Source: Allosaccharopolyspora coralli | GTDB lineage: Bacteria; Actinomycetota; Actinomycetes; Mycobacteriales; Pseudonocardiaceae | Assembly: GCF_009664835.1 (NCBI RefSeq) | Contig: NZ_CP045929.1 | Coordinates: 930,001 to 994,000 of the forward strand | DNA: 64,000 nt | Direction of reading: 5' to 3' | Part shown: positions 49,290 to 64,000 of the stretch, one piece after another | Position numbering within the stretch: position 1 is the stretch's first letter | Layout: every line of letters begins with the position of its first letter | Notes under the pieces: model-generated | Seen by the model: the letters and a program-made list of their open reading frames with translations, nothing else | Database searches by the model: none | Told to the model about the DNA's origin: nothing | Program-made: the position numbers and the translations under genes

Positions 49290-49559
49290 ATGACAGAGCG
49301 TGTGACAGTCGTGCAGGCTCGGTTGACCGAGGACGATGCTCGTCAGGTTGACCACGACGCTGCCGTGCTCGGGCTTCGAAACCGTTCCGAAGCTCTCCGG
49401 GAAGGGCTACGACTGCTCCACCAGCGCGCTGGTCACGCGGACCTGGCACGCGAGTACGACGCCTTCTACGGCACGTCAGAAGCGCCGATCAGTGACATCA
49501 CCGCTGCCGGTGACCAAGTAGCGGCAGAAGTCATGAGCACCGATGACGACGGCCGCTGA
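49290..49559 (+). CDS. Ribbon-helix-helix antitoxin (MazE-like)
   Basis: An 89-residue protein. The N-terminus VTVVQARLTEDDARQVDHDA and LRNRSEALREGLRLLHQRA is a ribbon-helix-helix DNA-binding domain. The acidic C-terminus (YDAFYGTSEAPISDITAA) would wrap and neutralise the toxin. The MazF-type gene starts 6 bp downstream, so the two are one operon that the antitoxin probably represses. Confidence 0.87.
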   Translation: MTERVTVVQARLTEDDARQVDHDAAVLGLRNRSEALREGLRLLHQRAGHADLAREYDAFYGTSEAPISDITAAGDQVAAEVMSTDDDGR

Positions 49560-49565
49560 ACCCAC

Positions 49566-49889
49566 ATGTTCAGAGGTGACGTATGGGACGTGCAGTTTCC
49601 CTCACCGATAGGAGCACGACCCTGCGTCGTGCTGACCGTCAACGTGCTGATCCCACGCCTCGGAGCTGTCACGGTCGCTGAGGTCACCGGCACCGAGGGG
49701 CCCAGTTCGACCCACATTCCGGTAGGCCCGGAAGCGGGATTGACCGGCCGGGGTCAGTCGTACATCAACGCCACGGCCCTGCACACGATTTCGAAGGGGA
49801 AACTGCGGCGACAACGCGGACGTCTCGCCGTTCCTGAACTCCAGCAACTCACCAAGGCGCTCGCGCTCTACCTCGACCTCGAAACCTAG
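49566..49889 (+). CDS. MazF/PemK-type endoribonuclease toxin
   Basis: A 107-residue toxin. The opening FRGDVWDVQFPSPIGARPCVVLTVN is the MazF hallmark, with the loop of basic and catalytic residues, and VAEVTGTEGPSSTHIPVG carries the conserved Ser/Thr strand. QSYINATALHTISKGKL is the usual third strand and basic patch. It would cut single-stranded mRNA at short motifs. It sits between adnB and the restriction genes, possibly stabilising the island. Confidence 0.9.
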   Translation: MFRGDVWDVQFPSPIGARPCVVLTVNVLIPRLGAVTVAEVTGTEGPSSTHIPVGPEAGLTGRGQSYINATALHTISKGKLRRQRGRLAVPELQQLTKALALYLDLET

Positions 49890-50053: not shown

Positions 50054-51436
50054 CTACCGCGACCTCTTCTTGCCTTTGCGACGAGGAGGTTTTCCGCGTG
50101 CGCGCGACCGATTTTGACGGCTGCGAGCATTCTCATTCGAATGCTCGATTCCCACGACAACCGAGTGTCCTTGTTGTGCCCTCGATTCTACAATCGATCG
50201 TAGCTCTTCTATTGTTGTACCGACTGTGCCGCAAAGGCCGTGTTGAACGAGATTCGTGAACTGCGTTGTCACCATATAGCGGTCGATGGTGTCGTAACCC
50301 AGGATTTTCCCACCGTTTCTTCCGGTGATCCTATCGTCTTCTAGTAACAGTCGCACATAAGACAGGGGAAGGTACATGCCGTCTGCTGGTTGCCGCGGAT
50401 CGTTCGGTCGATGAGTTGGCCAGTGAGCGAGTTTGACGAAGCACGGGTCCGTACCGAGCCGCCAGTCATCCGGGGTCCTGGGTTCGCTACTCAGGTTCGC
50501 GATTTCGCCCAGTCGGTCTAGTTGGCTGCGGAACTGTTTGTCAACATATAGATTCCTGTCGGTGCGGAGACGCTTGTACTGTACGAGAACGAAGCTGTTT
50601 GTTTGTTTGTGATAGTAGACCATGTCGGCACCGAGGCGACTCTCCACTGGCGTCGCGTTGACATTCGCGACCTCAAGGGTGCGACCATCCGAGGCTGCAA
50701 AGACATGTAAATCACAGCGGAATTTCGGATCATCCCGGATGCCCAGGAATTGGTAAGGATCAGATACTGTAGTCCGGGCGTCATGCTCGATCAGCGAACT
50801 TTCGGAGGGCTCGGGAATGAGTCCGGAGAGATACGGGGCATTTGGATTATCGGGACGGTTCCACGCGGCGACTGCGGAGACGGGAAAGTCAGCGGTTCGA
50901 ACGAGTGTTCCGAGCGCGTCCTGTTGCTCTTGCCACGCTCTGTCTTCGGCAGTCCCGGGATCGAGTTTGCTCGGCGAACCTAAGGCGATCAGCCAATCCA
51001 ACATGTAACTCATCGAGGGAGCATGGGCACGTAAAGCCTTGATTAATTCGTCCGTGGAGGCGCGGCTTATCGTGGTATCTTCCGCTGAATTTAATGCTTG
51101 GTGAACATCTTTTTGAGTTTGACTGGAAAGATGCCGAAGGATTCCTTGTTCTGATGTGAGGTCGATGGGCTCGTTGCAGCTCCGCAGGGGATCTATTGTT
51201 ATGGTCTTGTCTACGGCGCCGACTTGATTTCCGCTGGGTCTTATCACCATCCCTATCCGGGCGAGATGGTAAATTTTTGGGGTGGTGTCGGACGCTGAGC
51301 ATACCAGCGCCAACTGAGGCGAGCTGTCCACCGGGCGCAGAGAATAGCGAAGAGCCTTGGTGAGCTTTTGCTCGGCGTCGAGCTTCTTCTCGATACTCTC
51401 TAGTTCGGACTTAGATAAGACAACTACATAGGTCAC
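50054..51436 (-). CDS. Putative PD-(D/E)XK-like nuclease, unknown family
   Basis: A 460-residue protein I cannot place in a named family. Near residue 275 it has ESRLGADMVYYHKQ followed by SFVLVQYKRL, which fits an E..D-(x)n-QxK active site of PD-(D/E)XK nucleases (compare VQAKRY of Mrr). The C-terminal 30 residues are strongly basic (RSRARGKPPRRKGKKRSR), fit for binding nucleic acid. Base and codon use are clearly more AT-rich than the neighbours, a sign of transfer. GTG 51436 is the start. It follows the UvrD-like gene by 62 bp on the same strand, so they probably act together. Confidence 0.65.
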   Translation of the reverse strand: MTYVVVLSKSELESIEKKLDAEQKLTKALRYSLRPVDSSPQLALVCSASDTTPKIYHLARIGMVIRPSGNQVGAVDKTITIDPLRSCNEPIDLTSEQGILRHLSSQTQKDVHQALNSAEDTTISRASTDELIKALRAHAPSMSYMLDWLIALGSPSKLDPGTAEDRAWQEQQDALGTLVRTADFPVSAVAAWNRPDNPNAPYLSGLIPEPSESSLIEHDARTTVSDPYQFLGIRDDPKFRCDLHVFAASDGRTLEVANVNATPVESRLGADMVYYHKQTNSFVLVQYKRLRTDRNLYVDKQFRSQLDRLGEIANLSSEPRTPDDWRLGTDPCFVKLAHWPTHRPNDPRQPADGMYLPLSYVRLLLEDDRITGRNGGKILGYDTIDRYMVTTQFTNLVQHGLCGTVGTTIEELRSIVESRAQQGHSVVVGIEHSNENARSRQNRSRARGKPPRRKGKKRSR

Positions 51437-51498: not shown

Positions 51499-53616
51499 CT
51501 ACGCAGGATTCAGCACGGGGCTGAGGAACCGGCTCGGTTCGCCGTGCCAGGACACCCACAGGTGTTCTCGCGCTCGCGTGCAGGCGACGAACAGCAAGTT
51601 GCGCTCGGACTGCAGGTCCTGTTGGTGTTGTTGCGGATCCCGCTCCGCGTCGGTGAGCGCGTTCGGTTGAGGAACGCTGCCGTCGGACACGTCCGCCACC
51701 GCCACGCAACGGAATTCGAGTCCTTTCATCTTGTGCATCGTGCCGATCCGAACTCCTGAGCCGTCGGAGTCGTCGAGGGGACTGTGCTCGATGCCTGCTT
51801 CGGTCAGCGCCGCACCCACGGCTTTGCCGAATTGGACGGTCCGGGCGGTAACGCCGATGGTGTCGGCGGGGAACTCCTGGTCGAGCCAGTTCCGGACCTG
51901 AGCGACTACGGCGGCGATCTCGCTCTGCTTGTCGGGGAATCCCTGCGATTCGGGTGGGTCGCCCCGGAACGAGGACCGGTAGCCGACGAGGTGCGCCTCG
52001 CCCTCGTCCATGTCGTCCACACGTTCACCGAGCAACAAGGCGGTGCTCCACAGCAGAATTTCCCGTGAGGTGCGGTAGTTGATCCGCAGCGTTGACGAGC
52101 GTCCGGTGACGTGAATACCGAGTTGGCGCAACGACACCTTGCTGTCGTAGATGCGTTGGTGGGTGTCCCCGGCGATGAACAGATCGTCAGGACGGGGCGG
52201 GACGAGCGCTCGAAGAAGTCGCCATCGAGACGGGTGCAGGTCTTGGGCTTCGTCGATGATGACGTGCTGGTACGGCGATTCCGCCCCGTCTCGCAGGGCG
52301 TCGGCCGCCCCGTCGGCGATCATGTCGAAAGTGCAGCGGTCCTCCTCCTGCAGCACATGCTGGAAGCTCTCGATGACTGCCCATACTTGGTCTTTGGCGG
52401 CTGGCCGGATCGCGAGACCTCGACCGCGGCGGTCGGCTGCACGATATTCCTCGGCGGTGGTGATTCGTTGCGCGAGGACTACTTGCCGCCACTCTTGGTC
52501 GAGGAACGTGTCGGGCTGGTCGAGACCGTGCTCGACGGCGAGGTTGCGCCAGTGTGCTCGACGGTCGCTGTCGTCGATGATGGTGGGCTGTCCGTGCACG
52601 GAGCGGTAATACCGGTGGGCGATCACGTCGACGTGCTGCACATCGATTCGTGCACGGATGACGGCATCGGTGACGAGCATGTCGAGGTTGCGAGCGAGTT
52701 CCTTCGCGAGGTTCTTGGTGAAGGTCGTGAGCAAGATCGACTTCTCGGGAAGTTCCGGGTTCCGGGCGAGGTGGTGCGCCCGGTGCAGCGCCACGACCGT
52801 CTTTCCGGTTCCGGCGCCGCCGGTGACGCGCGCGGGGCCTTTGTACGGCGCATGTGCGGCGATCCGGCGTTGCGTGGGGTGCAGGAATACGCGCCACAGG
52901 TCGAACGGACGCTCCAGCACTTCGGCGAGTTCGTCCGAGTCGTGCACCACGACGATGTGGCCCTGCGATCGCAACATCGCGTCGGTGAAGCTGGCGTCGT
53001 CGTCCTCGGTGGCGTGCGGGAAGTTCTGGGCGAGTTCCTGCCACACCGCTTCGGGGGTCATTCCTGCCGCGAGGCCGGTGAGCACGTCGTACTGCAACTC
53101 GGGGATGAGCGCCCGGAGTGCGTCGAGCTGGTCGACGTCGTGCAGGAGACGGCACAGCGTGCGGATCTCGTCGTCGATGCCGAGCCGCGTGAGATCCGCG
53201 TCGGAGATGTCGTCGAAGAGTTTTGTCGTGGGCGCGGAGGGTGCGGAGTCGAGCCGGCGGAAGCTGTTGGTGGCGGTGGCGAGTGCGACGTCGTTGCGTA
53301 CCTCGATGCCTTTGCTGACTTTGTTCCGGGTGACCCTGCGATTGCGTGCCCACTCGATCGCTTTGTCGTGGGGGAGCACGGCGAGCAGCAGGTAGCCCCC
53401 GTCCCCGTCGTTCCTGACCACGACGCCGCGCCAGAACTTGGTGATCCGGATGGTGCGGATGTCGGGGTCGTGCGCACCGGTGATCTTTTCCAGGTGCAGC
53501 CCCGCGTGGGTGTGGTGCTCGAACTTGTCGAAGACTTCGTCGACGCGATCACGTACCGGCTTCTCCAGTTTGGCGTATTGAGGGAAGAAGTCGCGATGCA
53601 CTCCCAGAGCGGTCAC
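51499..53616 (-). CDS. UvrD-type helicase with apparent RelE-like N-terminal domain
   Basis: A 705-residue protein. Residues 1-105 (YAKLEKPVRDRVDEVFDKF, IRTIRITKFWRGVVVR, YLLLAVLPHDKAIEWA) follow the strand-helix order of RelE/ParE-family ribonuclease toxins. A linker of about 140 residues follows. The superfamily 1 helicase has Walker A GGAGTGKTVVAL, VIIDEAQDLHP, GDTHQRIY, INYRTSREI, MHKMKGLEFRCV, and LFVACTRAREHL. GTG 53616 has AAGGAG 7 nt upstream. It may couple DNA translocation to nucleic acid cleavage in defence. The RelE assignment rests on pattern only and needs a structure comparison. Confidence 0.8.
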   Translation of the reverse strand: MTALGVHRDFFPQYAKLEKPVRDRVDEVFDKFEHHTHAGLHLEKITGAHDPDIRTIRITKFWRGVVVRNDGDGGYLLLAVLPHDKAIEWARNRRVTRNKVSKGIEVRNDVALATATNSFRRLDSAPSAPTTKLFDDISDADLTRLGIDDEIRTLCRLLHDVDQLDALRALIPELQYDVLTGLAAGMTPEAVWQELAQNFPHATEDDDASFTDAMLRSQGHIVVVHDSDELAEVLERPFDLWRVFLHPTQRRIAAHAPYKGPARVTGGAGTGKTVVALHRAHHLARNPELPEKSILLTTFTKNLAKELARNLDMLVTDAVIRARIDVQHVDVIAHRYYRSVHGQPTIIDDSDRRAHWRNLAVEHGLDQPDTFLDQEWRQVVLAQRITTAEEYRAADRRGRGLAIRPAAKDQVWAVIESFQHVLQEEDRCTFDMIADGAADALRDGAESPYQHVIIDEAQDLHPSRWRLLRALVPPRPDDLFIAGDTHQRIYDSKVSLRQLGIHVTGRSSTLRINYRTSREILLWSTALLLGERVDDMDEGEAHLVGYRSSFRGDPPESQGFPDKQSEIAAVVAQVRNWLDQEFPADTIGVTARTVQFGKAVGAALTEAGIEHSPLDDSDGSGVRIGTMHKMKGLEFRCVAVADVSDGSVPQPNALTDAERDPQQHQQDLQSERNLLFVACTRAREHLWVSWHGEPSRFLSPVLNPA

Positions 53617-53708: not shown

Positions 53709-53751
53709 GTTGACTTTGTCAACAGTGCGATCTCGCAGTAGTGTTGTCAAC
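53709..53751 (+). promoter_or_regulatory. Promoter and operator of the restriction operon
   Basis: A TTGTCA -35 (53716-53721), 17-bp spacer and TAGTGT -10 (53739-53744) end 7 nt before the ATG, suggesting a leaderless message. Palindrome GTTGAC-TTT-GTCAAC (53709-53723) covers the -35 and GTTG-T-CAAC (53743-53751) covers the start. The encoded protein begins with a helix-turn-helix, so autorepression is likely (inference). The 135-bp gap also carries the divergent promoter of the UvrD-like gene. Confidence 0.55.
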
Positions 53752-55605
53752 ATGACAGAGGCGCTGAGTGCGGCGGAGATCGCGAGGCTGGCCGGTGTCG
53801 GTCGCGCGGCCGTCACCAACTGGCGCAAGCGCCATGAGGACTTCCCGCGGCCGCTCCCTGGGTCGACCGGTGCCGCGCGGTTCGACGCTGAGCTGACCCG
53901 CCAATGGTTGCGTGCGCACGGCAAGCTCGGTGAGCAACCGCTCGCCGACATCCTGCGGGACGCGGCGGAGCGTCTGGGAGATGACCTCGCCGTAGGCGAC
54001 GCGATCATCGGTGCGACTCGCGCGCGGGAGTTGGAATCGACCGGGGCAACTGGCCGCGAGGATGATGTAGTGCGGCTGCTCGCTGACTCGGATGTTTCGA
54101 CGATCGAGGAGTTCGTCGCGGACTGGGCGGCGCGGAGGGGCGTCGGGCCTTCGCCCGCGCCGGAGCTTGCCGATCTGATGTACCGACTCAGCGGCGGTGG
54201 TCGCGTGCTCGACCCCTTCTGTCGTGGTGGTGAGCTGTTGCGCCCGGCCGCTGCGCAGAAGTATCCGGTGCGAGGTCAATGCCTGGACGAGGTGTCAGCC
54301 CGGGTGACATCAGCGGTGCTGCGTTTGCATGCGGACGCGGCCAGGATCGACACGGGCCATGCGCTGCGCGCGGACGCGACCGAAGACGAGGTGTTTCCGG
54401 CGGTGCTCACGGTGCCGCCGTGGGGCGAGAAGGATTGGAGTGGCGAGGACGTACAGTTCGATGCTCGCTGGGAGTTCGGCTTGCCGCCTCGAACGAGCAG
54501 CGAGCTGGCATGGGTGCAGCACGCCGTGGCACACCTCGATGAGCAAGGCACGGCAGTCGTCGCGTTGCCTGCCGGGGTGGGCGTGCACCGGGCGGGTCGC
54601 CGCGTGCGTGCCGAGCTGGTGCGTCGCGGCGCGCTGAGAGCGGTCGTGGGGTTGCCGACGGGTGCCTTCCGGTCTTCCGCCGCGCCGTCGGTGCTCTGGG
54701 TGCTCCGTCGGCCGAGTGAGGCATCGGGTGTGCTCATGGTCGACGGAGCACACGCGCGAGCCAACGGCGCTCTGGACTGGGACGAGTTGCTCGAGACAGC
54801 CCTGCCCGCGTGGGAAGAGTTCGACGCGTCCGCTGACTGCCCCGAACAGCAGGGAGTGTGCGGCGTGGTGTCGGCGATCGACCTTCTCGACGAGGCCGTA
54901 GATCTCAGCCCGGCCCGCCACCTCGCCGCGACTGTCCAGACGGATGTTCCCGGCCTTCGAACGCTTCGCGGTCAGGTTGCCGACGTGGTGGGCCAGCTCC
55001 CGGAATTGATCCCAGCGATCGAGCCGTCATCCTCACCGCGCGGGCCCACGACCTCTGTCGGCGAACTGGGCAGCACGCCCGCTTTGACGGTGCATCGCCA
55101 GTCCGCATCGGTCCCTGACGGCAAGGAACTGCCCGCGTTGACGGCCCGCGATGTCGTGAGCGCCAGGGCGCCGTCCGGGCAATGGGGTGGGCGCGACCCG
55201 ATCTGGCTGCGGCCGGACGACGTGGTGCTGCCGATGATGGGCGGGCGACTGACGAGTCGCGTGATCGACGACGAGAAGGGCGTGCTGGGGCCGCAGGTGT
55301 GGTTGCTGCGGGTTGATCCGGAGCTGGTCGACCCGTGGTTTCTGGCGGGCTTCCTGCGCTGTTCGGCGAACCTGGCGTTGACGTCGGGTTCGGTGACGGC
55401 GCGGCTCGACGTGCGCCGGGTGGAGCTGCCGCGGTTGCCGATCGACGAGCAGCGGGTGTACGGGGAAGCGTTTCGCAGCGCGATGCGATTGGACGAGGTC
55501 CTCGACGAGGCGCGACGGGTTGGCACGGACTTGGTCACCGGGGTAATCGACGGTCTGGCCGGTGGTGCGTTGAGGCCGGTCAGCGACAGCGGTGACACAG
55601 GATGA
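53752..55605 (+). CDS. HTH-methylase-TRD fusion protein with degenerate N6-methylase motifs
   Basis: A 617-residue protein in three parts. Residues 1-60 are a MerR-like helix-turn-helix (SAAEIARLAGVGRAAVTNWR). Residues about 120-390 are an N6-adenine methylase fold like HsdM. From about 450 comes a specificity-like domain (LRPDDVVLPMMGGRLTSRV; LDVRRVELPRLPIDEQRVYG), as in HsdS. Motif I is VLDPFCRGGELL rather than DPxCGxGG, and motif IV is TVPPWGEKDW, where the catalytic D/N/S before PP is V. The methylase is thus probably inactive or unusual. It is the first gene of the restriction operon, 67 bp before hsdM. Confidence 0.8.
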   Translation: MTEALSAAEIARLAGVGRAAVTNWRKRHEDFPRPLPGSTGAARFDAELTRQWLRAHGKLGEQPLADILRDAAERLGDDLAVGDAIIGATRARELESTGATGREDDVVRLLADSDVSTIEEFVADWAARRGVGPSPAPELADLMYRLSGGGRVLDPFCRGGELLRPAAAQKYPVRGQCLDEVSARVTSAVLRLHADAARIDTGHALRADATEDEVFPAVLTVPPWGEKDWSGEDVQFDARWEFGLPPRTSSELAWVQHAVAHLDEQGTAVVALPAGVGVHRAGRRVRAELVRRGALRAVVGLPTGAFRSSAAPSVLWVLRRPSEASGVLMVDGAHARANGALDWDELLETALPAWEEFDASADCPEQQGVCGVVSAIDLLDEAVDLSPARHLAATVQTDVPGLRTLRGQVADVVGQLPELIPAIEPSSSPRGPTTSVGELGSTPALTVHRQSASVPDGKELPALTARDVVSARAPSGQWGGRDPIWLRPDDVVLPMMGGRLTSRVIDDEKGVLGPQVWLLRVDPELVDPWFLAGFLRCSANLALTSGSVTARLDVRRVELPRLPIDEQRVYGEAFRSAMRLDEVLDEARRVGTDLVTGVIDGLAGGALRPVSDSGDTG

Positions 55606-55672: not shown

Positions 55673-57679
55673 GTGAGTAGCAAGCATCAGGAGCTGGCGG
55701 GCTTCATCTGGTCCGTCGCGGACCTCCTGCGTGGTGACTTCAAGCAGTCCGAGTACGGCAAGGTGATCCTGCCGTTGACGGTGCTGCGCAGGCTCGACTG
55801 TGTTCTGGAGCCGACGCGGGCTGCGGTGCTGGAACGCTGGGAGAAGGCGAAGAAGGACGGGACCGGCAACCCGGAACGGTTGTTGACCCGGCTCTCGGGC
55901 TACAGCTTCTACAACACCAGCAAGTTCACCTTCCAACGTGGAGTGCCGGGGTTGACCTCGCTGCTGGCCGACCAGGACAAGGTCGGGAAGAACCTGAAGT
56001 CCTTCATCGGCAGCTTCTCGGATGAGGCGCAGGACATCCTGGACAAGTACGACTTCGAGACGCAGATCAATCGGCTTCAGAGCGCCGGGATCCTGTATCA
56101 GGTCGTCGGCAAGTTCGCCGAGGCGGACCTGCATCCGGAGGTCGTGTCGAACCACCAGATGGGGTACCTGTTCGAGGAACTGATCCGGCGGTTCTCCGAA
56201 ATCTCCAACGAGACCGCCGGTGAGCACTTCACCCCACGTGAGGTCATCAAGCTCATGGTGAACCTGCTGCTCGCGCCTGACCAGGCGAAGGTCACGGCCC
56301 CCGGCGCGATGCTGCGGGTGCTCGACCCGGCGTGCGGAACGGGCGGGATGCTCTCCGCGGCCGAGGAGTTCATCACCTCGCACAACTCGAACGCGCACGT
56401 GACGGTGTTCGGGCAGGAACTCAACGCCGAGTCGTACGCGATCTGCAAGTCCGACCTCCTGATCAAGAACCAGGAGGCGCAGAACATCCACCACGGCAAC
56501 TCGTTCAGCCACGACCGGCACTACGGCACGAAGTTCGACTACATGCTGGCGAATCCGCCGTTCGGTGTGGAGTGGAAGAAGGTCCGCGACGACGTGGAGC
56601 GGGAGGCCCAGCTCGGTCACGCGGGACGCTTCGGCGCAGGGTTGCCGCGGATCAACGACGGGTCGTTGCTGTTCCTGCAGCACATGATCGCGCACATGAG
56701 GTCGCCGGAGGACGGCGGTTCGCGGGTCGCGATCGTGTTCAACGGTTCGCCACTTTTCACCGGCTCGGCAGGGTCGGGGGAGTCGGAGATTCGGCGCTGG
56801 ATCCTGGAGAACGACCTGCTGGAGGGCATCGTCGCGCTGCCGGACCAGTTGTTCTACAACACCGGGATCTCCACGTACTTCTGGATCCTGACGAACCGGA
56901 AGGCCCCGCAGCACAAGGGCAAAGTCACCCTGCTCGACGCGCGCGAGTACTGGGCGAAGATGCGCAAGAGTCTCGGCGACAAGCGAAAGTACGTCACCGA
57001 CGAGCAGATCCACCAGCTCACCGAGCTCTACGAGCAGGCGTCGTCGGCGGCGACCGACGAGTCGCACCCGTTGCACGAGAAGGTGAAGGTCTTCGACACC
57101 ACCGACTTCGGGTACCAGCGCATCACCGTGGAACGCCCGCTGCGGCAACGGTTCGAGCTCACCGAGGACACCGTCACCCAGGTCGAGGCGGCCAAGCCGC
57201 TCGCGAAGTTCGATGGCAGCGAGGCGTTGCTAGCAGCGCTGCGGACGCTGACCGGACAGACGTGGTGGAAGAAGGTAGACTTCGAGTCGGCGCTGCGCGG
57301 CGCACTCGCCGAGTCCGGTGCTGTCGCGAAGCTGCCCGCACCGGTGAGCAAGGCCGTCCTCGGCGCGGTCGCGGTCTCCGACGAGGACGGTGAGCTGCAG
57401 ACCGACCCGAAGACCGGCGACGCGTTGCCCGACCCGGACCTGCGGGACAACGAGAACGTGCCCCTCGACGAGGACATCGACGTCTACGTCGCCCGCGAGG
57501 TGCACCCGCACGTCCCCGACGCCTGGGTGGACCACACCAAGACGAAGATCGGCTACGAGATCCCCTTCACACGGCACTTCTACAAATACGTGCCGCCCAG
57601 ACCACTGGAGGAGATCGACGCCGAGCTGAAGCAGCTGGAGGGCGAGATCCAGCGCCTCCTGACGGAGGTGACGGAGTGA
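55673..57679 (+). CDS. hsdM: Type I restriction system methylase subunit HsdM
   Basis: A 668-residue N6-adenine methylase. The N-terminal helical domain starts KHQELAGFIWSVADLLRG. Motif I is RVLDPACGTGGMLSAA near residue 220 and motif IV is YMLANPPFGVEW, both canonical, so this subunit can methylate. GRFGAGLPRINDGSLLFLQH and LEGIVALPDQLFYNTGIST are further family motifs. GTG 55673 follows GAGAGGTGG and fits the usual N-terminus; an upstream GTG at 55592 overlaps the preceding gene. The hsdS gene overlaps the stop by 4 bp. Confidence 0.95.
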   Translation: MSSKHQELAGFIWSVADLLRGDFKQSEYGKVILPLTVLRRLDCVLEPTRAAVLERWEKAKKDGTGNPERLLTRLSGYSFYNTSKFTFQRGVPGLTSLLADQDKVGKNLKSFIGSFSDEAQDILDKYDFETQINRLQSAGILYQVVGKFAEADLHPEVVSNHQMGYLFEELIRRFSEISNETAGEHFTPREVIKLMVNLLLAPDQAKVTAPGAMLRVLDPACGTGGMLSAAEEFITSHNSNAHVTVFGQELNAESYAICKSDLLIKNQEAQNIHHGNSFSHDRHYGTKFDYMLANPPFGVEWKKVRDDVEREAQLGHAGRFGAGLPRINDGSLLFLQHMIAHMRSPEDGGSRVAIVFNGSPLFTGSAGSGESEIRRWILENDLLEGIVALPDQLFYNTGISTYFWILTNRKAPQHKGKVTLLDAREYWAKMRKSLGDKRKYVTDEQIHQLTELYEQASSAATDESHPLHEKVKVFDTTDFGYQRITVERPLRQRFELTEDTVTQVEAAKPLAKFDGSEALLAALRTLTGQTWWKKVDFESALRGALAESGAVAKLPAPVSKAVLGAVAVSDEDGELQTDPKTGDALPDPDLRDNENVPLDEDIDVYVAREVHPHVPDAWVDHTKTKIGYEIPFTRHFYKYVPPRPLEEIDAELKQLEGEIQRLLTEVTE

Positions 57680-58905
57680 ACGAGGTGCGGCTCAAGAACT
57701 TGGTGACCCACATCGTTGAAAAGAACGACGGTACCCTTCGTGAGTTCGTTGCGCTTGAGAACCTGCATTCGGGCAGTGGATCATTGAATTCCGGCGAGCT
57801 GGAATTTAAGGCGGCTGAGGACAGTCTTCAACATAAGAAGGGTGACGTTCTTTTTAGTAAGTTGCGTCCGTATCTGGCGAAGTCGCACCTTGCTAAAGTT
57901 GCTCGCACTGGGACAAGCGAGCTCATGGTGTTGCGTGCCGGTCGCGATCTTGACAGTCGTTACCTTTTTTACACCTCCTTGTCGCGTCCGTGGATCGACT
58001 GGGCTGTCGCGACTTCGTACGGATCCAAGATGCCGCGCACCTCCTGGGAGGGAATGGCGGATTACCGGCTCCACGTGCCGCCGCTGGAGGAGCAGCGCCG
58101 CATCGCCGACTTCCTCGACGCCGAAACCTCCCGCATCGATGAGCTTGTTGCCTTAACCCGAGTTCAGTTGACCGTCCTGGCAGAGCGGAGGATTGTGCAA
58201 GTTCGTCAGATGACCACACGTGGAGCGGCGAGAGTCGCCAGCCCGACCGGCGTTCCCTGGATGCCGAGGATGGCTAGCGGATGGACGCTTCGCAAGATCG
58301 GACGGACGTTCAAGACAGGAAGCGGAACGACGCCCCGTTTGGACGACGAACGGTACTGCGGAGACGACGTCCCATGGATTAACACGTCCGATCTGAGGGA
58401 TGGGCTCGTTGACGTTGTAAAAAACAGCCTGAGTAATGAAGCGTTGCGGGATCACTCGGCTTTGCGCGTCTATGAACCGGGAGTACTTGTCGTCGCAATG
58501 TACGGAGCAACCGTCGGGCGGGTTGGAATAACGGGAACTTCCTGCTGCGTGAATCAAGCTTGTTGTGTCTTGTATAGCCCGGCAAGTTTGACGACCGAGT
58601 ATGCATATTTTTGGCTATTGGGGTTCCGGGGGGACATTCTTAAAATGGCGACTGGTGGTGGTCAGCCAAACATTAGTCAAGATACGGTGCGTTCGCTCCG
58701 AATTCCGGCCCCGGATGTGAGTACTCAACGAGAAATTGTGCGGTTCCTTGAGCGTGAAGAAGGACTCTATCGGTCCAAGACCGAGCTACTGAACAAGAGG
58801 CTCGAACTCCTCGCGGAGCGGAAGCAGGCCCTCATCACCGCGGCTGTGACCGGGCAGATCGACGTGACGTCGGCGGGCCGGGCGACGGCGGATCTGCGGG
58901 CGTAG
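57676..58905 (+). CDS. hsdS: Type I restriction system specificity subunit HsdS
   Basis: A 409-residue subunit that reads the target sequence. It has two target-recognition domains (about residues 1-130 and 195-350), each closed by the family pattern PPLEEQRRIADFLDAETSRIDELV or ISTQREIVRFLEREE-like and a helical spacer. Two TRDs suggest a bipartite asymmetric target. Base composition drops in both TRDs (for example 57780-57980 and 58390-58700), a usual sign of domain exchange. GTG 57676 overlaps the hsdM stop (coupled translation). The SNF2 gene starts 80 bp on. Confidence 0.93.
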   Translation: MNEVRLKNLVTHIVEKNDGTLREFVALENLHSGSGSLNSGELEFKAAEDSLQHKKGDVLFSKLRPYLAKSHLAKVARTGTSELMVLRAGRDLDSRYLFYTSLSRPWIDWAVATSYGSKMPRTSWEGMADYRLHVPPLEEQRRIADFLDAETSRIDELVALTRVQLTVLAERRIVQVRQMTTRGAARVASPTGVPWMPRMASGWTLRKIGRTFKTGSGTTPRLDDERYCGDDVPWINTSDLRDGLVDVVKNSLSNEALRDHSALRVYEPGVLVVAMYGATVGRVGITGTSCCVNQACCVLYSPASLTTEYAYFWLLGFRGDILKMATGGGQPNISQDTVRSLRIPAPDVSTQREIVRFLEREEGLYRSKTELLNKRLELLAERKQALITAAVTGQIDVTSAGRATADLRA

Positions 58906-58985
58906 CCGGTCACTCGGATGGTGGATGTTGGTGTGCGGGTGTCGCGAGACGGTGACGGCACCACCGGCAGGACAGAGAGGCAGTG

Positions 58986-61199
58986 ATGGGCGAACCACCG
59001 CAGGACACACCCCGCGCTGCCGCGACCGTGCAGCCGTCGCAGGCCGCGTCGGTGCTCGCCGCCGCGCGGTCCTTCCGGGACGCCGCCACCTGGTTCCTGG
59101 CCGAACCCGCACGCCTGCGCGAGCGCGCGCAAGAACAGTACCGAGCGCTGCGCCACTGGGCGGTCCACCAACGGCTGTCTGCCATGCCGGTTGAAAAGCT
59201 TCGGGACGCGGGAACCGGTGGCTTGCGTATCGGAAACCTGCGAAAGGCGGGCTACGACTCGGTTGGCGCCGTCGCCGCCGCTCGCCCCGAGCACTTGCTG
59301 GCGGTTCCGGGCGTGGGGCAGGCCACCGCACAACACGCGCAGCAGGCCGCGTGGAATCTCGCGGAGGCGGCCGAGCGCGAGATGGTCGTGCGTCTCGACC
59401 CCGACGCGCGTCCCTCCGCACAGACCGAGCTGATCGGGACGCTGCGAGCGCTGCAGGTCGCCGAGCACGAAGTGTCCGAACAAGGCCACACCACGCGTGC
59501 TGCACTCGACGAGGTCGAAGCCCTCGGCCCGCTCGCCCGGCGTGCCACTCACAAGGCGCGCATGTTCTTCGCCCGCAGACGGAAAAAGGACGAAGCGCTC
59601 AGCGCACTCGGTCGTCTCGATACCTTGCTCGCCGAACCACGTGTCGCGGACATCAACGCGGCGTTCCGTCGGGTCGCGGCGAGTACCGAGACGCGTGACC
59701 CGAACTCGCTGTGGCTGGACTACGAACATCGGGCCGCCGCCTACAACACCAAGCTCGCCGAACTCGCCGGCAGCAGCGCCGAGCCGGGAGGGTCCGCCAC
59801 CGGCCACATCCCGACCGAACTCGAACGCGAGATCCGTGCCGTCCCGCTGGACACCTCGCTGCTGACTGTGACGCTGCGCGGTTACCAGGACTTCGGGGCG
59901 AAGTACGCGATCTCGCGGGAGAAATCGATCCTCGGTGACGAGATGGGGCTCGGCAAGACGATCCAAGCGCTCGCCACCATGGCCCACATCGCCGCCCACG
60001 GTCGCAGACACTTCCTCGTCGTCTGCCCCGCCAGCGTGGTCATGAACTGGGCCGACGAAACGGCCCGGCACAGCAAGCTGAAACCGTACACACTGCATGG
60101 AACGATGCGTCAGCACGTCATCCGAACTTGGCTCCGGGAAGGTGGCGTCGCCGTCACCACCTTCGAGACCCTGCAACGGCTGCGGGGTCTCGACGAGGTG
60201 CGCGTCGGACTCCTGGTGGTAGACGAGGCGCACTACGTCAAGAACCCCGACGCCAAGCGGTCCCGGGCGGTGGCGGACGCGGGCAGCCGGGCCGAGCGCA
60301 CCCTGTTCCTCACCGGGACACCGATGGAGAACAAGGTCGAGGAGTTCCGGAACCTCGTCGACTACTTGCAACCCGCCGTCGCCGCGAAGGTCAGTGTCCA
60401 GGACACCCTCGCGGGCGCGACGGCGTTCCGCCGTGCGGTTGCGCCGGTGTACCTGCGCCGCAATCAGGACGACGTGCTGACCGAACTACCGGACAAGCTC
60501 GAACTCGAGGACTGGGTGGAACTCGGCCCCGCCGACCACGCCGCGTACCGGTCGGCGGTGCAGCGCAGCAACTTCATGGCGATGCGTCAGGCCGCTTACC
60601 AGACCGGACTCCAATCGGCGAAGATCGAACGGCTCCGGGAGATCGTGGAGGAATCAAGGGAGAACGGCTGGAAAGTCATCGTGTTCTCCTACTTCCTCGA
60701 CGTGCTTCAGACGGTGCAGCAGGCGGTAGGCGAGGCAGCGATGTCCCAGCCGTTGACCGGAGCGCTCGGCCCGAACGAGAAACAAGCGCTGGTTGCCGAA
60801 TTCGGCAATCGGGACGGCCATGCCGTGCTTGCCAGCCAGATCACCGCAGGCGGAGTCGGTCTCAACATTCAGGCCGCGAGCGTGGTCATCCTCGCCGAAC
60901 CGCAGCTCAAACCCAGCACCGAAAACCAAGCCATCGCCCGTGCCCATCGCATGGGGCAGACCCGCAAGGTGCACGTCCATCGACTGCTCGCCAAGGACAC
61001 CGTCGATCAACGGCTGATGGAGGTCCTCGAAGGCAAAGCCAGACTCTTCGACGCCTACGCACGCGAGAGCGCCGCGAAGCTCGCCGACCCCGCGGCCGTC
61101 GACAGGAGCTACCTCAACGCCGACCTGTTGCACGACGCCGACGTGCCCGTGGACCGGCGCATCGTCCAGGTCGAACGGCAACGACTCGGCCTGGACTGA
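58986..61199 (+). CDS. SNF2-family helicase with N-terminal helix-hairpin-helix
   Basis: A 737-residue DNA translocase. Residues about 85-125 include LLAVPGVGQATAQHAQQAAW, a helix-hairpin-helix for non-specific DNA binding. A helical middle part follows. The SWI2/SNF2 motor has SILGDEMGLGKTIQAL, VVDEAHYVKN, LFLTGTPMENKVEE, ITAGGVGLNIQAA and QAIARAHRMGQTRKV. ATG 58986 has GAGAGG upstream; GTG 58983 is next to it. Lying between hsdS and the Mrr gene, it is probably an accessory translocase of the restriction system, comparable to SNF2 proteins in defence systems such as DISARM. That parallel is inferred. Confidence 0.9.
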   Translation: MGEPPQDTPRAAATVQPSQAASVLAAARSFRDAATWFLAEPARLRERAQEQYRALRHWAVHQRLSAMPVEKLRDAGTGGLRIGNLRKAGYDSVGAVAAARPEHLLAVPGVGQATAQHAQQAAWNLAEAAEREMVVRLDPDARPSAQTELIGTLRALQVAEHEVSEQGHTTRAALDEVEALGPLARRATHKARMFFARRRKKDEALSALGRLDTLLAEPRVADINAAFRRVAASTETRDPNSLWLDYEHRAAAYNTKLAELAGSSAEPGGSATGHIPTELEREIRAVPLDTSLLTVTLRGYQDFGAKYAISREKSILGDEMGLGKTIQALATMAHIAAHGRRHFLVVCPASVVMNWADETARHSKLKPYTLHGTMRQHVIRTWLREGGVAVTTFETLQRLRGLDEVRVGLLVVDEAHYVKNPDAKRSRAVADAGSRAERTLFLTGTPMENKVEEFRNLVDYLQPAVAAKVSVQDTLAGATAFRRAVAPVYLRRNQDDVLTELPDKLELEDWVELGPADHAAYRSAVQRSNFMAMRQAAYQTGLQSAKIERLREIVEESRENGWKVIVFSYFLDVLQTVQQAVGEAAMSQPLTGALGPNEKQALVAEFGNRDGHAVLASQITAGGVGLNIQAASVVILAEPQLKPSTENQAIARAHRMGQTRKVHVHRLLAKDTVDQRLMEVLEGKARLFDAYARESAAKLADPAAVDRSYLNADLLHDADVPVDRRIVQVERQRLGLD

Positions 61200-61223
61200 A
61201 CAACCCCGAGGGAAAGCGACACC

Positions 61224-62123
61224 ATGGCTGTACCCGAGTTCCGGAGCATGATGCTCCCGCTGCTGAGTTTCCTCGGCGACGGCGAAGCGCGGCACTGGCG
61301 CGACCAACGTGACAGCTGCATCCGTGAGTTCGAGCTCACCGACGACGACCTTGCCGAAACCATCGCAAGCGGCGGATACCGGCTGGACGGTCGTGTGCAA
61401 TGGGTGCACACCCATCTGTTCCAAGCTGGCCTCGTGGATCGACCGCGCCGAGGCACGGTGCAAATCACCGAACGAGGGCGAAAGGTTCTCGCCGACCCTC
61501 CGGATCAGATCGACGCGACCTACCTGTCCCAGTTCGAGGAATACCGGGAGTTCCGCAGTCGTACCAGGAAGACTCCTGACGATGCGAACGCCGACGAATC
61601 GACCGAGACGGCCACGCCCTGGGAGACGGTGGCAGCAGCTGTCCGGGAGAACGACGAAGCGCTCACCAGCGAACTCTTGCGCCGCGTCACGACGCAGGAT
61701 CCGGCGTTCCTGGAAAAGCTCGTGCTCCGCTTGCTCACCGCGATGGGCTACGGCGGACGCACCGGCGCCACCGAACACTGGGGCCGTTCCGGCGACGGCG
61801 GGATCGACGGCACCATCCGCCAGGATGAGCTCGGGCTCGACCGCGTGTACGTGCAAGCCAAGCGCTACACCGACCACAGCGTCGGACGCCCCGACATCCA
61901 GGCCTTCGTCGGAGCCCTGCACGGGGTACAGGCCGATCGTGGCGTGTTCATCACGACGAGCCGCTTCACGCAGGACGCCACCTCCTACGTGGAGCGCATC
62001 GCGAACCGGATCATCCTCATCGACGGACATCGGCTCGCCGAGCTGATGCTGCTCTACAACGTCGGGGTCCAGGACGAACGAACCTTCGTCCTCAAACGCG
62101 TCGACGAGGACTTCTTCGAGTGA
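61224..62123 (+). CDS. Mrr-family restriction endonuclease
   Basis: A 299-residue nuclease with an N-terminal winged-helix domain (VWVHTHLFQAGLVDRPRRGTVQITERGRKVL-like, about residues 40-90) and a C-terminal PD-(D/E)XK Mrr domain. Catalytic residues are visible in GRSGDGGIDG followed by VYVQAKRY (D..QxK), then VGRPDIQAFVGAL. Mrr proteins cut modified or foreign DNA (type IV). The gene is 24 bp after SNF2 and 30 bp before hsdR, so it belongs to the operon. It would seem at odds with methylation by HsdM unless it ignores the host pattern. Confidence 0.92.
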   Translation: MAVPEFRSMMLPLLSFLGDGEARHWRDQRDSCIREFELTDDDLAETIASGGYRLDGRVQWVHTHLFQAGLVDRPRRGTVQITERGRKVLADPPDQIDATYLSQFEEYREFRSRTRKTPDDANADESTETATPWETVAAAVRENDEALTSELLRRVTTQDPAFLEKLVLRLLTAMGYGGRTGATEHWGRSGDGGIDGTIRQDELGLDRVYVQAKRYTDHSVGRPDIQAFVGALHGVQADRGVFITTSRFTQDATSYVERIANRIILIDGHRLAELMLLYNVGVQDERTFVLKRVDEDFFE

Positions 62124-62153
62124 CAACCACTCAACACGAACATGGGGAACAAC

Positions 62154-64000
62154 ATGAGCGCCGTGCACAGTGAAGCCGCTTTCGAGGCCGCGATCGAAAA
62201 CCATCTGCTCGCCAACGGGTGGCGACAGGGAAGCCGGGACCACTACGAACCCGACGTCGCCATCGACACCGCCGAACTCACCGCGTTCCTCGGCGCCACC
62301 CAGCCGCGGGAATGGGACCGCATCCGCGACTACTACAGCGACGCCGACGAAGCACAGCGTGCTTTCGCGCGCCTGGTCGCCGCACAGATCGACGAGCGCG
62401 GCACGTTGGACGTACTGCGCAACGGTGTGAAAGACCGCGGCGTGCAGATCCAGATCGCGTTCTTCCGGCCCGCCCACACCGTCGCGGCCGATGCGCTCGT
62501 GGAGTACGAGGCCAACCGCCTGACCGTGACACGACAACTGCACCACTCCGCGAAGAACCCGCGCGACTCGCTGGACCTCGTGCTGTTCCTCAACGGGATT
62601 CCCGTCGCCACCGCGGAACTCAAGAACCACCTCACCGGCCAGACCGTCGAAAACGCCAAGCAGCAGTACCGTTCCGACCGCGACCCGACCGACCTACTGT
62701 TGTCGCGGCGCGCCCTCGTGCACTTCGCCGTGGACCCCGAGCTGGTGTTTCTCACAACCAAGCTGGAAGGCGAGAGCACCCGGTTCCTGCCGTTCAACAC
62801 CGGATCCAACGGACCCAGTGTGTCCGGCGCAGGTGGCAACCCGCCCGCAGCTGACGGGGACTACCGCACCGCATACCTGTGGAAGCAGATCTGGCAGCGG
62901 GACAACTGGCTCGACCTGTTGCGTCGCTTCGTGCACGTGCAGGCACCTCAAGGCGGACGGGCCCGGAGTCGAGGTCGCAAACGCGCCGAACTCACCACGA
63001 TCTTCCCGCGCTACCACCAATGGGACGCGGTGCTGAGGCTCACCGATCACGTCGCTCGCCACGGCTCCGGGGACAACTACCTCGTCATGCACTCGGCGGG
63101 ATCGGGCAAGTCCAACACGATCGCCTGGCTCGCACACCGACTGTCCAGCCTGCACACACCCGGTGAGGCTGCGGAACTGGACCCGCAGGCGGGCCTGGGG
63201 CCCAACGAGCAGGTTTTCGACAAGGTCATCGTCATCACCGACCGCACCATCCTCGATCGCCAGCTTCAGGAAACGATCTACCAGTTCGATCACGTACCAG
63301 GTGTGGTCGAACGGATCACCGGGACCCGAGGCGGGTCCAAGTCAGCGCACGTCGCGTGGGCGCTGCAGGACTCGGGGGTGAAGGTACTCATCGCGACGAT
63401 CCAGACCTTTCCGTTCGTCCTCGACCAGGTGCAAGCCGTCGGTCAACAACGGTTCGCGCTCATCGTCGACGAGGCGCACTCCTCCCAGTCCGGGGACGCT
63501 GCCAGCGATCTCAAGAAGGTGTTGCTCAAACTCGGCAGCGACGACATCGACGAAGACCTCGATCTGCTGACCGCCTCCGCCCTTGCGCGCAAGCAGCACC
63601 CCAACATGTCCTGGTTCGCGTTCACTGCCACGCCCAAGCCCAAGACACTGGAACTGTTCGGACGACGGAACGCGATGGGCAACCACGAGCCGTTCCACGT
63701 GTACTCGATGCGCCAAGCCATCGACGAAGGATTCATCCTCGACGTGCTGCGCAACTACATCACGTACAAGACGTACTACCGCCTCGCGACCGACCCTGCG
63801 AACGAATCGAAAGAAGTCGATGAACGCAAGGCCAAGGCGGCGCTCGCACGCTACGCCGAGCTGCACCCGACCAGCATGGAGCAGCGCGCCGAGATCATCG
63901 TCGAACATTTCCGTCACCACACGGCCAACCAGCTCGGAGGACGTGCCAAGGCGATGGTGGTGACCCGATCCCGCGAACACGCAGTGCGATTGTTCTGGGC
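62154..64000 (+). CDS. hsdR: Type I restriction endonuclease HsdR (3' partial)
   Basis: At least 615 residues; the frame runs off the window. The N-terminal nuclease domain has SLDLVLFLNGIPVATAELKN (D..ExK). The superfamily 2 translocase begins with HSAGSGKSNTIAWLAH (Walker A), LIVDEAHSSQSG (DEAH) and FAFTATPKPKTLELFG. HsdR translocates DNA and cuts it away from the target when bound to HsdM and HsdS. ATG 62154 lies 30 bp after the Mrr gene. The stop and the helical C-domain are beyond the window. Confidence 0.95.
   Translation, partial: MSAVHSEAAFEAAIENHLLANGWRQGSRDHYEPDVAIDTAELTAFLGATQPREWDRIRDYYSDADEAQRAFARLVAAQIDERGTLDVLRNGVKDRGVQIQIAFFRPAHTVAADALVEYEANRLTVTRQLHHSAKNPRDSLDLVLFLNGIPVATAELKNHLTGQTVENAKQQYRSDRDPTDLLLSRRALVHFAVDPELVFLTTKLEGESTRFLPFNTGSNGPSVSGAGGNPPAADGDYRTAYLWKQIWQRDNWLDLLRRFVHVQAPQGGRARSRGRKRAELTTIFPRYHQWDAVLRLTDHVARHGSGDNYLVMHSAGSGKSNTIAWLAHRLSSLHTPGEAAELDPQAGLGPNEQVFDKVIVITDRTILDRQLQETIYQFDHVPGVVERITGTRGGSKSAHVAWALQDSGVKVLIATIQTFPFVLDQVQAVGQQRFALIVDEAHSSQSGDAASDLKKVLLKLGSDDIDEDLDLLTASALARKQHPNMSWFAFTATPKPKTLELFGRRNAMGNHEPFHVYSMRQAIDEGFILDVLRNYITYKTYYRLATDPANESKEVDERKAKAALARYAELHPTSMEQRAEIIVEHFRHHTANQLGGRAKAMVVTRSREHAVRLFW

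Follow-up and report, generated by a model that had tools for sequence, protein, structure and literature searches.

Little is known about how type I restriction operons are controlled. RptR, a small dedicated repressor from Gammaproteobacteria, was described in 2025; it is encoded next to hsdM, and the promoter of the operon carries conserved sites for it (PMC12255303). Regulation can also be carried out by a methylase: the N-terminal domain of M.SsoII binds a 15-bp palindrome and represses the enzyme's own gene, and its methylase domain contacts DNA next to the operator (PMC6100179). Both kinds of control, by a moonlighting methylase and by a repressor dedicated to type I systems, have precedents.

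Here I describe P0001, the product of the first gene of a type I restriction-modification (RM) operon from Allosaccharopolyspora coralli, in a stretch of 64,000 nucleotides that was analysed as a whole and is called the window below. P0001 is probably a transcriptional autoregulator, and probably a repressor, of the operon that it heads, a reading to which I would give a probability of about 0.72. Like M.SsoII and M.Ecl18kI, it combines a methylase with an N-terminal DNA-binding domain and a palindrome of roughly 15 bp at its own promoter, an arrangement that serves RM autoregulation in those enzymes (PMC6100179) and is predicted to do so in P0001. However, M.SsoII and M.Ecl18kI are active type II C5-cytosine methylases, whereas P0001 has an N6-type fold, an S-like domain and a degenerate active site, and belongs to a type I operon. 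With RptR it would share the position of a DNA-binding regulator encoded beside hsdM, with conserved promoter sites (PMC12255303), but RptR is small and gammaproteobacterial, uses TAGCTA direct repeats, and contains neither a methylase nor an S domain. By analogy, a function like that of M.SsoII or RptR is the best explanation of P0001. As far as the literature searched shows, no type I M-half-S fusion with a helix-turn-helix (HTH), an operator and the dead active site of this clade has been described before; the searches found no paper on an HTH-methylase-S family, which does not prove that there is none. The protein is built as follows:

53752..55605, + strand: P0001 (HTH-pseudo-methylase-half-HsdS), an ORF of 617 aa whose existence was confirmed
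53764..53931, + strand: winged HTH, residues 5-60, with recognition helix V21, N23, W24, R25, R27
54157..54951, + strand: methylase-like domain, residues 136-400, Pfam PF02384, Z 33 to PacII M1
54952..55602, + strand: HsdS-like half, one TRD and a long C-terminal helix, residues 401-617, from the profile match to HsdS and the model

A Pfam search finds an N6_Mtase match in P0001 (E 5e-23), and in a confident AlphaFold model (mean pLDDT 91.7) residues 61-396 superpose on the HsdM1 subunit of PacII (Z 33, rmsd 3.3, 335 residues), which identifies a class I MTase / type I M fold. The HsdM subunits of PacII M1M2S (7vru) are the best match to this part by fold and by profile; PacII M1 differs in that it has NPPF, is active, lacks an HTH and leaves the S subunit separate. 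The 'intact MTase' of Vibrio vulnificus YJ016 (7eew) gives the one type I M match that spans residues 65-615, nearly everything beyond the HTH, but the HTH itself lies outside the match and the full-length rmsd is large, reflecting another domain arrangement. Residues 1-60 of the model run strand-helix-helix-wing-helix, the order of a winged HTH, and 4 of 73 homologues match Pfam HTH_17. At the other end, the family profile matches the solved HsdS chains 5ybb_D and 3okg_A (E about 2e-12), indicating a TRD and long helix of the HsdS type, one half only, which Pfam alone does not pick up. Thus the HTH at the front and the HsdS-like recognition domain at the back, both proposed in a preliminary description made from the letters alone, reappear in model and profile.

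The P0001 gene is present as a single copy in the 4.83-Mb chromosome, where its sole other match is the adjoining hsdM, and it comes first in a co-directional operon of the order P0001-hsdM-hsdS-SNF2-mrr-hsdR:

55676..57679, + strand: HsdM, with intact LDPACGTG and NPPF
57676..58905, + strand: HsdS, Pfam Methylase_S
58983..61199, + strand: SNF2-type helicase, accessory, PADLOC DrmD model, E 1.5e-249
61224..62123, + strand: Mrr-type nuclease, accessory
62142..64000, + strand: HsdR, 1033 aa, running past the window end (L057:1143-4244), named without a family search from operon position and the sequence as read; HsdR homologues occupy the same operon position in relatives

The SNF2 helicase and Mrr nuclease (58983-62123) lie between hsdS and hsdR; both are present in L059 and L063 but missing between HsdM and HsdR in L060 and L061, and so look like an optional cassette.

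Among 390 genomes of the family, an HTH-methylase lies directly upstream of 34 of the 44 best HsdM matches, and the matches without one are nearly all more distant HsdMs. Such tight linkage would suit a P0001 that pairs with HsdM as a non-catalytic partner subunit and shapes a hetero-oligomeric methylase, in the manner of M1M2S or METTL3-METTL14, and the nearest fold, PacII M1 (Z 33), does come from a natural M1M2S enzyme (PMC9613975). I nevertheless consider a partner subunit unlikely. P0001 has an S-like half of its own, many homologues stand alone, the orphan relative in L058, which lacks an adjacent hsdM, has lost the same motifs and retains a perfect operator, and pairing with HsdM would not account for the conservation of the HTH and of the operator. 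The pseudo-methylases METTL14 and MTA9 also reuse the methylase fold without catalysis but, unlike P0001, they are eukaryotic heterodimer partners that are not known to have an HTH or an operator.

The damage to the active site of P0001 is distributed over four motifs:

54211..54234, + strand: degenerate motif I, DPFCRGGE (family DPACGxGx), G158 replaced by R, from the homologue alignment
54280..54282, + strand: motif II acid lost, residue 177 is C (GQE/D to GQC)
54358..54360, + strand: motif III acid lost, residue 203 is H (GDS to GHA)
54412..54414, + strand: motif IV catalytic position, residue 221 is V (VPPW)

The translation contains ...VLTVPPWGEKDW (V221, codon GTG, 54412-54414) and RVLDPFCRGGELL, and its VPPW departs from the D/N/S-PP-Y/F/W motif IV of active HsdM-type N6-adenine methylases. 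The SAM-binding motifs I-III (G-rich loop, E/D, D) are likewise altered to R158, C177 and H203, at positions where the family has G in 96%, E/D in 92% and D in 95%, respectively, and SAM binding has presumably been lost. The valine at the catalytic position and the altered motif I had both been reported in the preliminary description; alignment confirms them and adds the losses in motifs II and III.

The four nearest homologues of P0001 (49-54% identical) belong to two further genera of its family; they read CVPPW, CAPPW, CVPPW and CVPPW at motif IV, and DPHCH, DPHCG, DPWCG or DPYCG at motif I, with H or Y for the motif II acid; D203 of motif III is retained in these relatives, as against H203 in the window protein. 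Together with P0001 they form one clade (support 100) in a tree from which the motif columns were excluded, and D/N at motif IV is restricted to other clades. Since all four carry V or A, the clade is one of pseudo-methylases conserved under selection, the product neither of chance nor of a lone mutation, and the objection that the valine might be a single change fails. In the two close pairs within the clade, no domain reaches a dN/dS of 0.45, and the HTH has a value of about 0.1; the genes are therefore maintained rather than decaying. Because all five members have V or A at motif IV and have lost residues of motifs I and II besides, the sequences support the view that the clade consists of non-methylating DNA-binding proteins and not of modification enzymes. 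That P0001 still methylates, perhaps a different base, despite its VPPW is very unlikely: it does keep the PP-aromatic and an intact predicted fold, and H, E and V variants are frequent in the family, but motifs I, II and III are damaged too, and motif IV mutants of PacII M1 (N276/F279) had impaired m6A methylation (PMC9613975).

Comparison of the wider family contrasts the HTH with the catalytic residue. The 73 aligned homologues all have V21, N23, W24, R25, R27, F31 and P32 in the HTH, whereas catalytic position 221 is only the 362nd best conserved of 617 (N.46, D.20, H.10, V.08; S, A and E also occur), and the state of motif IV has changed at least 19 times on the homologue tree. With the HTH invariant and the catalytic residue variable, the function common to the family looks like DNA binding by the HTH rather than catalysis. 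Many homologues retain D or N, and these may both methylate and regulate.

Other members of the family have their own departures at motif IV. A second, independent hsdM-linked pseudo-methylase lineage (L082, L087-L094, L185), also positioned before hsdM, lost motifs I and IV separately (motif I DPACRDA/DPAGVDG, motif IV scrambled). The orphan L058 member of the P0001 clade, at L058:8001-10133, has CVPPW and a perfect operator and no hsd genes nearby. Many stand-alone copies from other families of the class have H at motif IV (CHPPFNERNWG; L111, L115, L118-L128, L132 and similar loci), an unusual, clade-wide substitution accompanied by a mostly intact motif I. The idea that the catalytic acid disappears next to hsdM and persists in stand-alone copies was rejected: 29 of the 48 linked copies still have D/N, and motif IV of many solo copies has H, E, G or A.

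The preliminary description had suggested a non-methylating DNA sensor or a competitor of HsdM-HsdS. An HsdS-like domain joined to a broken catalytic site could indeed allow P0001 to compete for, or to sense, HsdM-HsdS target sites. However, the recognition domain of such a sensor would be expected to diverge along with HsdS, and the TRD does not: between clade A operons HsdS is 32-41% identical as against 57-96% for the pseudo-methylase TRD, and in L060/L061 the TRD is 96% and HsdS 39% identical, so target recognition does not track the neighbouring HsdS. Clade member L058, moreover, persists without an adjacent hsdM. Of that suggestion the non-methylating DNA-binding protein survives, as V or A in all five clade members indicates, and competition with HsdM-HsdS, or sensing of its target sites, which these comparisons argue against, is very unlikely. 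Since the TRD stays constant while HsdS diverges, the S-like part seems to read a constant sequence, perhaps, by analogy with M.SsoII, the DNA beside the operator.

The predicted operator upstream of the P0001 gene, which the preliminary description did not mention, points to transcriptional control:

53709..53723, no strand: predicted operator, perfect 6-3-6 palindrome GTTGAC-TTT-GTCAAC, the local form of the family element TGTGAACnnnGTCAACA
53716..53721, + strand: putative -35 box TTGTCA, formed by the right half of the operator, by consensus, 17 nt before TAGTGT
53739..53744, + strand: putative -10 box TAGTGT, by sequence and spacing, with the ATG about 8 nt further on
53744..53752, + strand: second half-site TTGTCAACA, overlapping the start codon

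The window version of the family pseudo-palindrome, GTTGACTTTGTCAAC, covers the -35 box, and GTTGACNNNGTCAAC has one perfect copy in the whole window, at 53709..53723; the 9-mer TTGTCAACA has 3 copies against 0.12 expected. A leaderless transcript starting near the ATG is predicted. TANNNT spacing is weakly enriched over the whole homologue set (9 against 3.4 expected), and the intergenic region gave no signal for structured single-strand DNA (z -0.3).

Allowing at most 2 mismatches, the 15-bp core GTGAACNNNGTCAAC lies upstream of 56 of 107 homologues, where shuffling predicts about 1.7. For the RAA-helix class the 17-bp element is found in 30 of 84 upstreams as against 7 of 403 upstreams of other genes at the same loci. 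The RAT-helix class carries a variant operator, CTGAAAGCnnTGTCAAA, in 15 of 22 upstreams and 0 of 403 controls, of which the controls alone are independent, the pattern having been derived from the sequences later scored. Elements of the own type outnumber those of the other type by 48 to 0 in RAA copies and 16 to 3 in RAT copies, a covariation with few independent changes because the RAT class is essentially one clade. In 3 genomes with both HTH classes, the upstream of each copy matches the element of its own class more closely than that of the other. At least a third of homologue upstreams, many belonging to stand-alone copies, have no clear site. Sites with 1 mismatch occur elsewhere in the genome (e.g. 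G000:C1:2698303); the four inspected showed no convincing promoter of a related gene, and I claim no second target. Another reading, an ordinary promoter for a host factor with the HTH acting elsewhere, draws on the overlap with the -35 box and is very unlikely, since the type of element changes with HTH class, within single genomes too, and 10 of 10 hsdM genes without the HTH protein do not carry the element.

Autoregulation by P0001 would start from a fused methylase/half-specificity protein with an N-terminal winged HTH, a DNA-binding domain encoded in an RM operon and linked to hsdM, as is the trait of RM autoregulators. Two HTH heads would occupy the palindrome at 53709-53723, which covers the -35 box, and possibly the start-codon half-site too; bound P0001 would block RNA polymerase, so that expression of hsdM, hsdS, SNF2, mrr and hsdR would be held low or timed. 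The methylase-like core would act as scaffold and dimerisation body, its ability to methylate presumably gone in the P0001 clade, and the S-like domain may grip DNA flanking the operator. Operator binding, the sign of regulation and the oligomeric state are all predicted from sequence; repression is favoured because the site overlaps the -35 box and a half-site covers the start, with activation as a possible alternative. A more speculative extension, which I regard as doubtful, is that the dead methylase and half-S body are themselves the sensor, which would recognise foreign DNA or the state of methylation at a fixed sequence and switch the type I defence operon through the HTH. In that case the whole HTH-methylase-S family, stand-alone copies included, would form a novel class of transcription factors that derive from methylases and control defence genes.

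If autoregulation is correct, P0001 would be an actinobacterial counterpart of RptR on a methylase-specificity scaffold. Annotated homologues in public plasmid records are named 'N-6 DNA methylase' or 'class I SAM-dependent DNA methyltransferase', and hsdM-adjacent genes called 'N-6 DNA methylase' should not be counted as modification enzymes before their motifs are inspected.

A UvrD-like helicase gene (51499-53616, - strand) diverges from the pseudo-methylase gene. The palindrome lies between it and the operon, so the predicted operator could control both. UvrD-like homologues (44-49% identical) also occur near stand-alone HTH-methylases of other genomes (L159, L163, L167, L169, L171, L172, L173). 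Beyond the helicase, a 460-aa ORF (50054-51436, - strand) without a match in Pfam, PADLOC or NCBIfam occupies a low-G+C stretch (57%) and contains the third TTGTCAACA, at 50538. At the island edge, judged by eye, a ribbon-helix-helix antitoxin-like ORF is followed by a MazF/PemK-like toxin (49300-49889, + strand).
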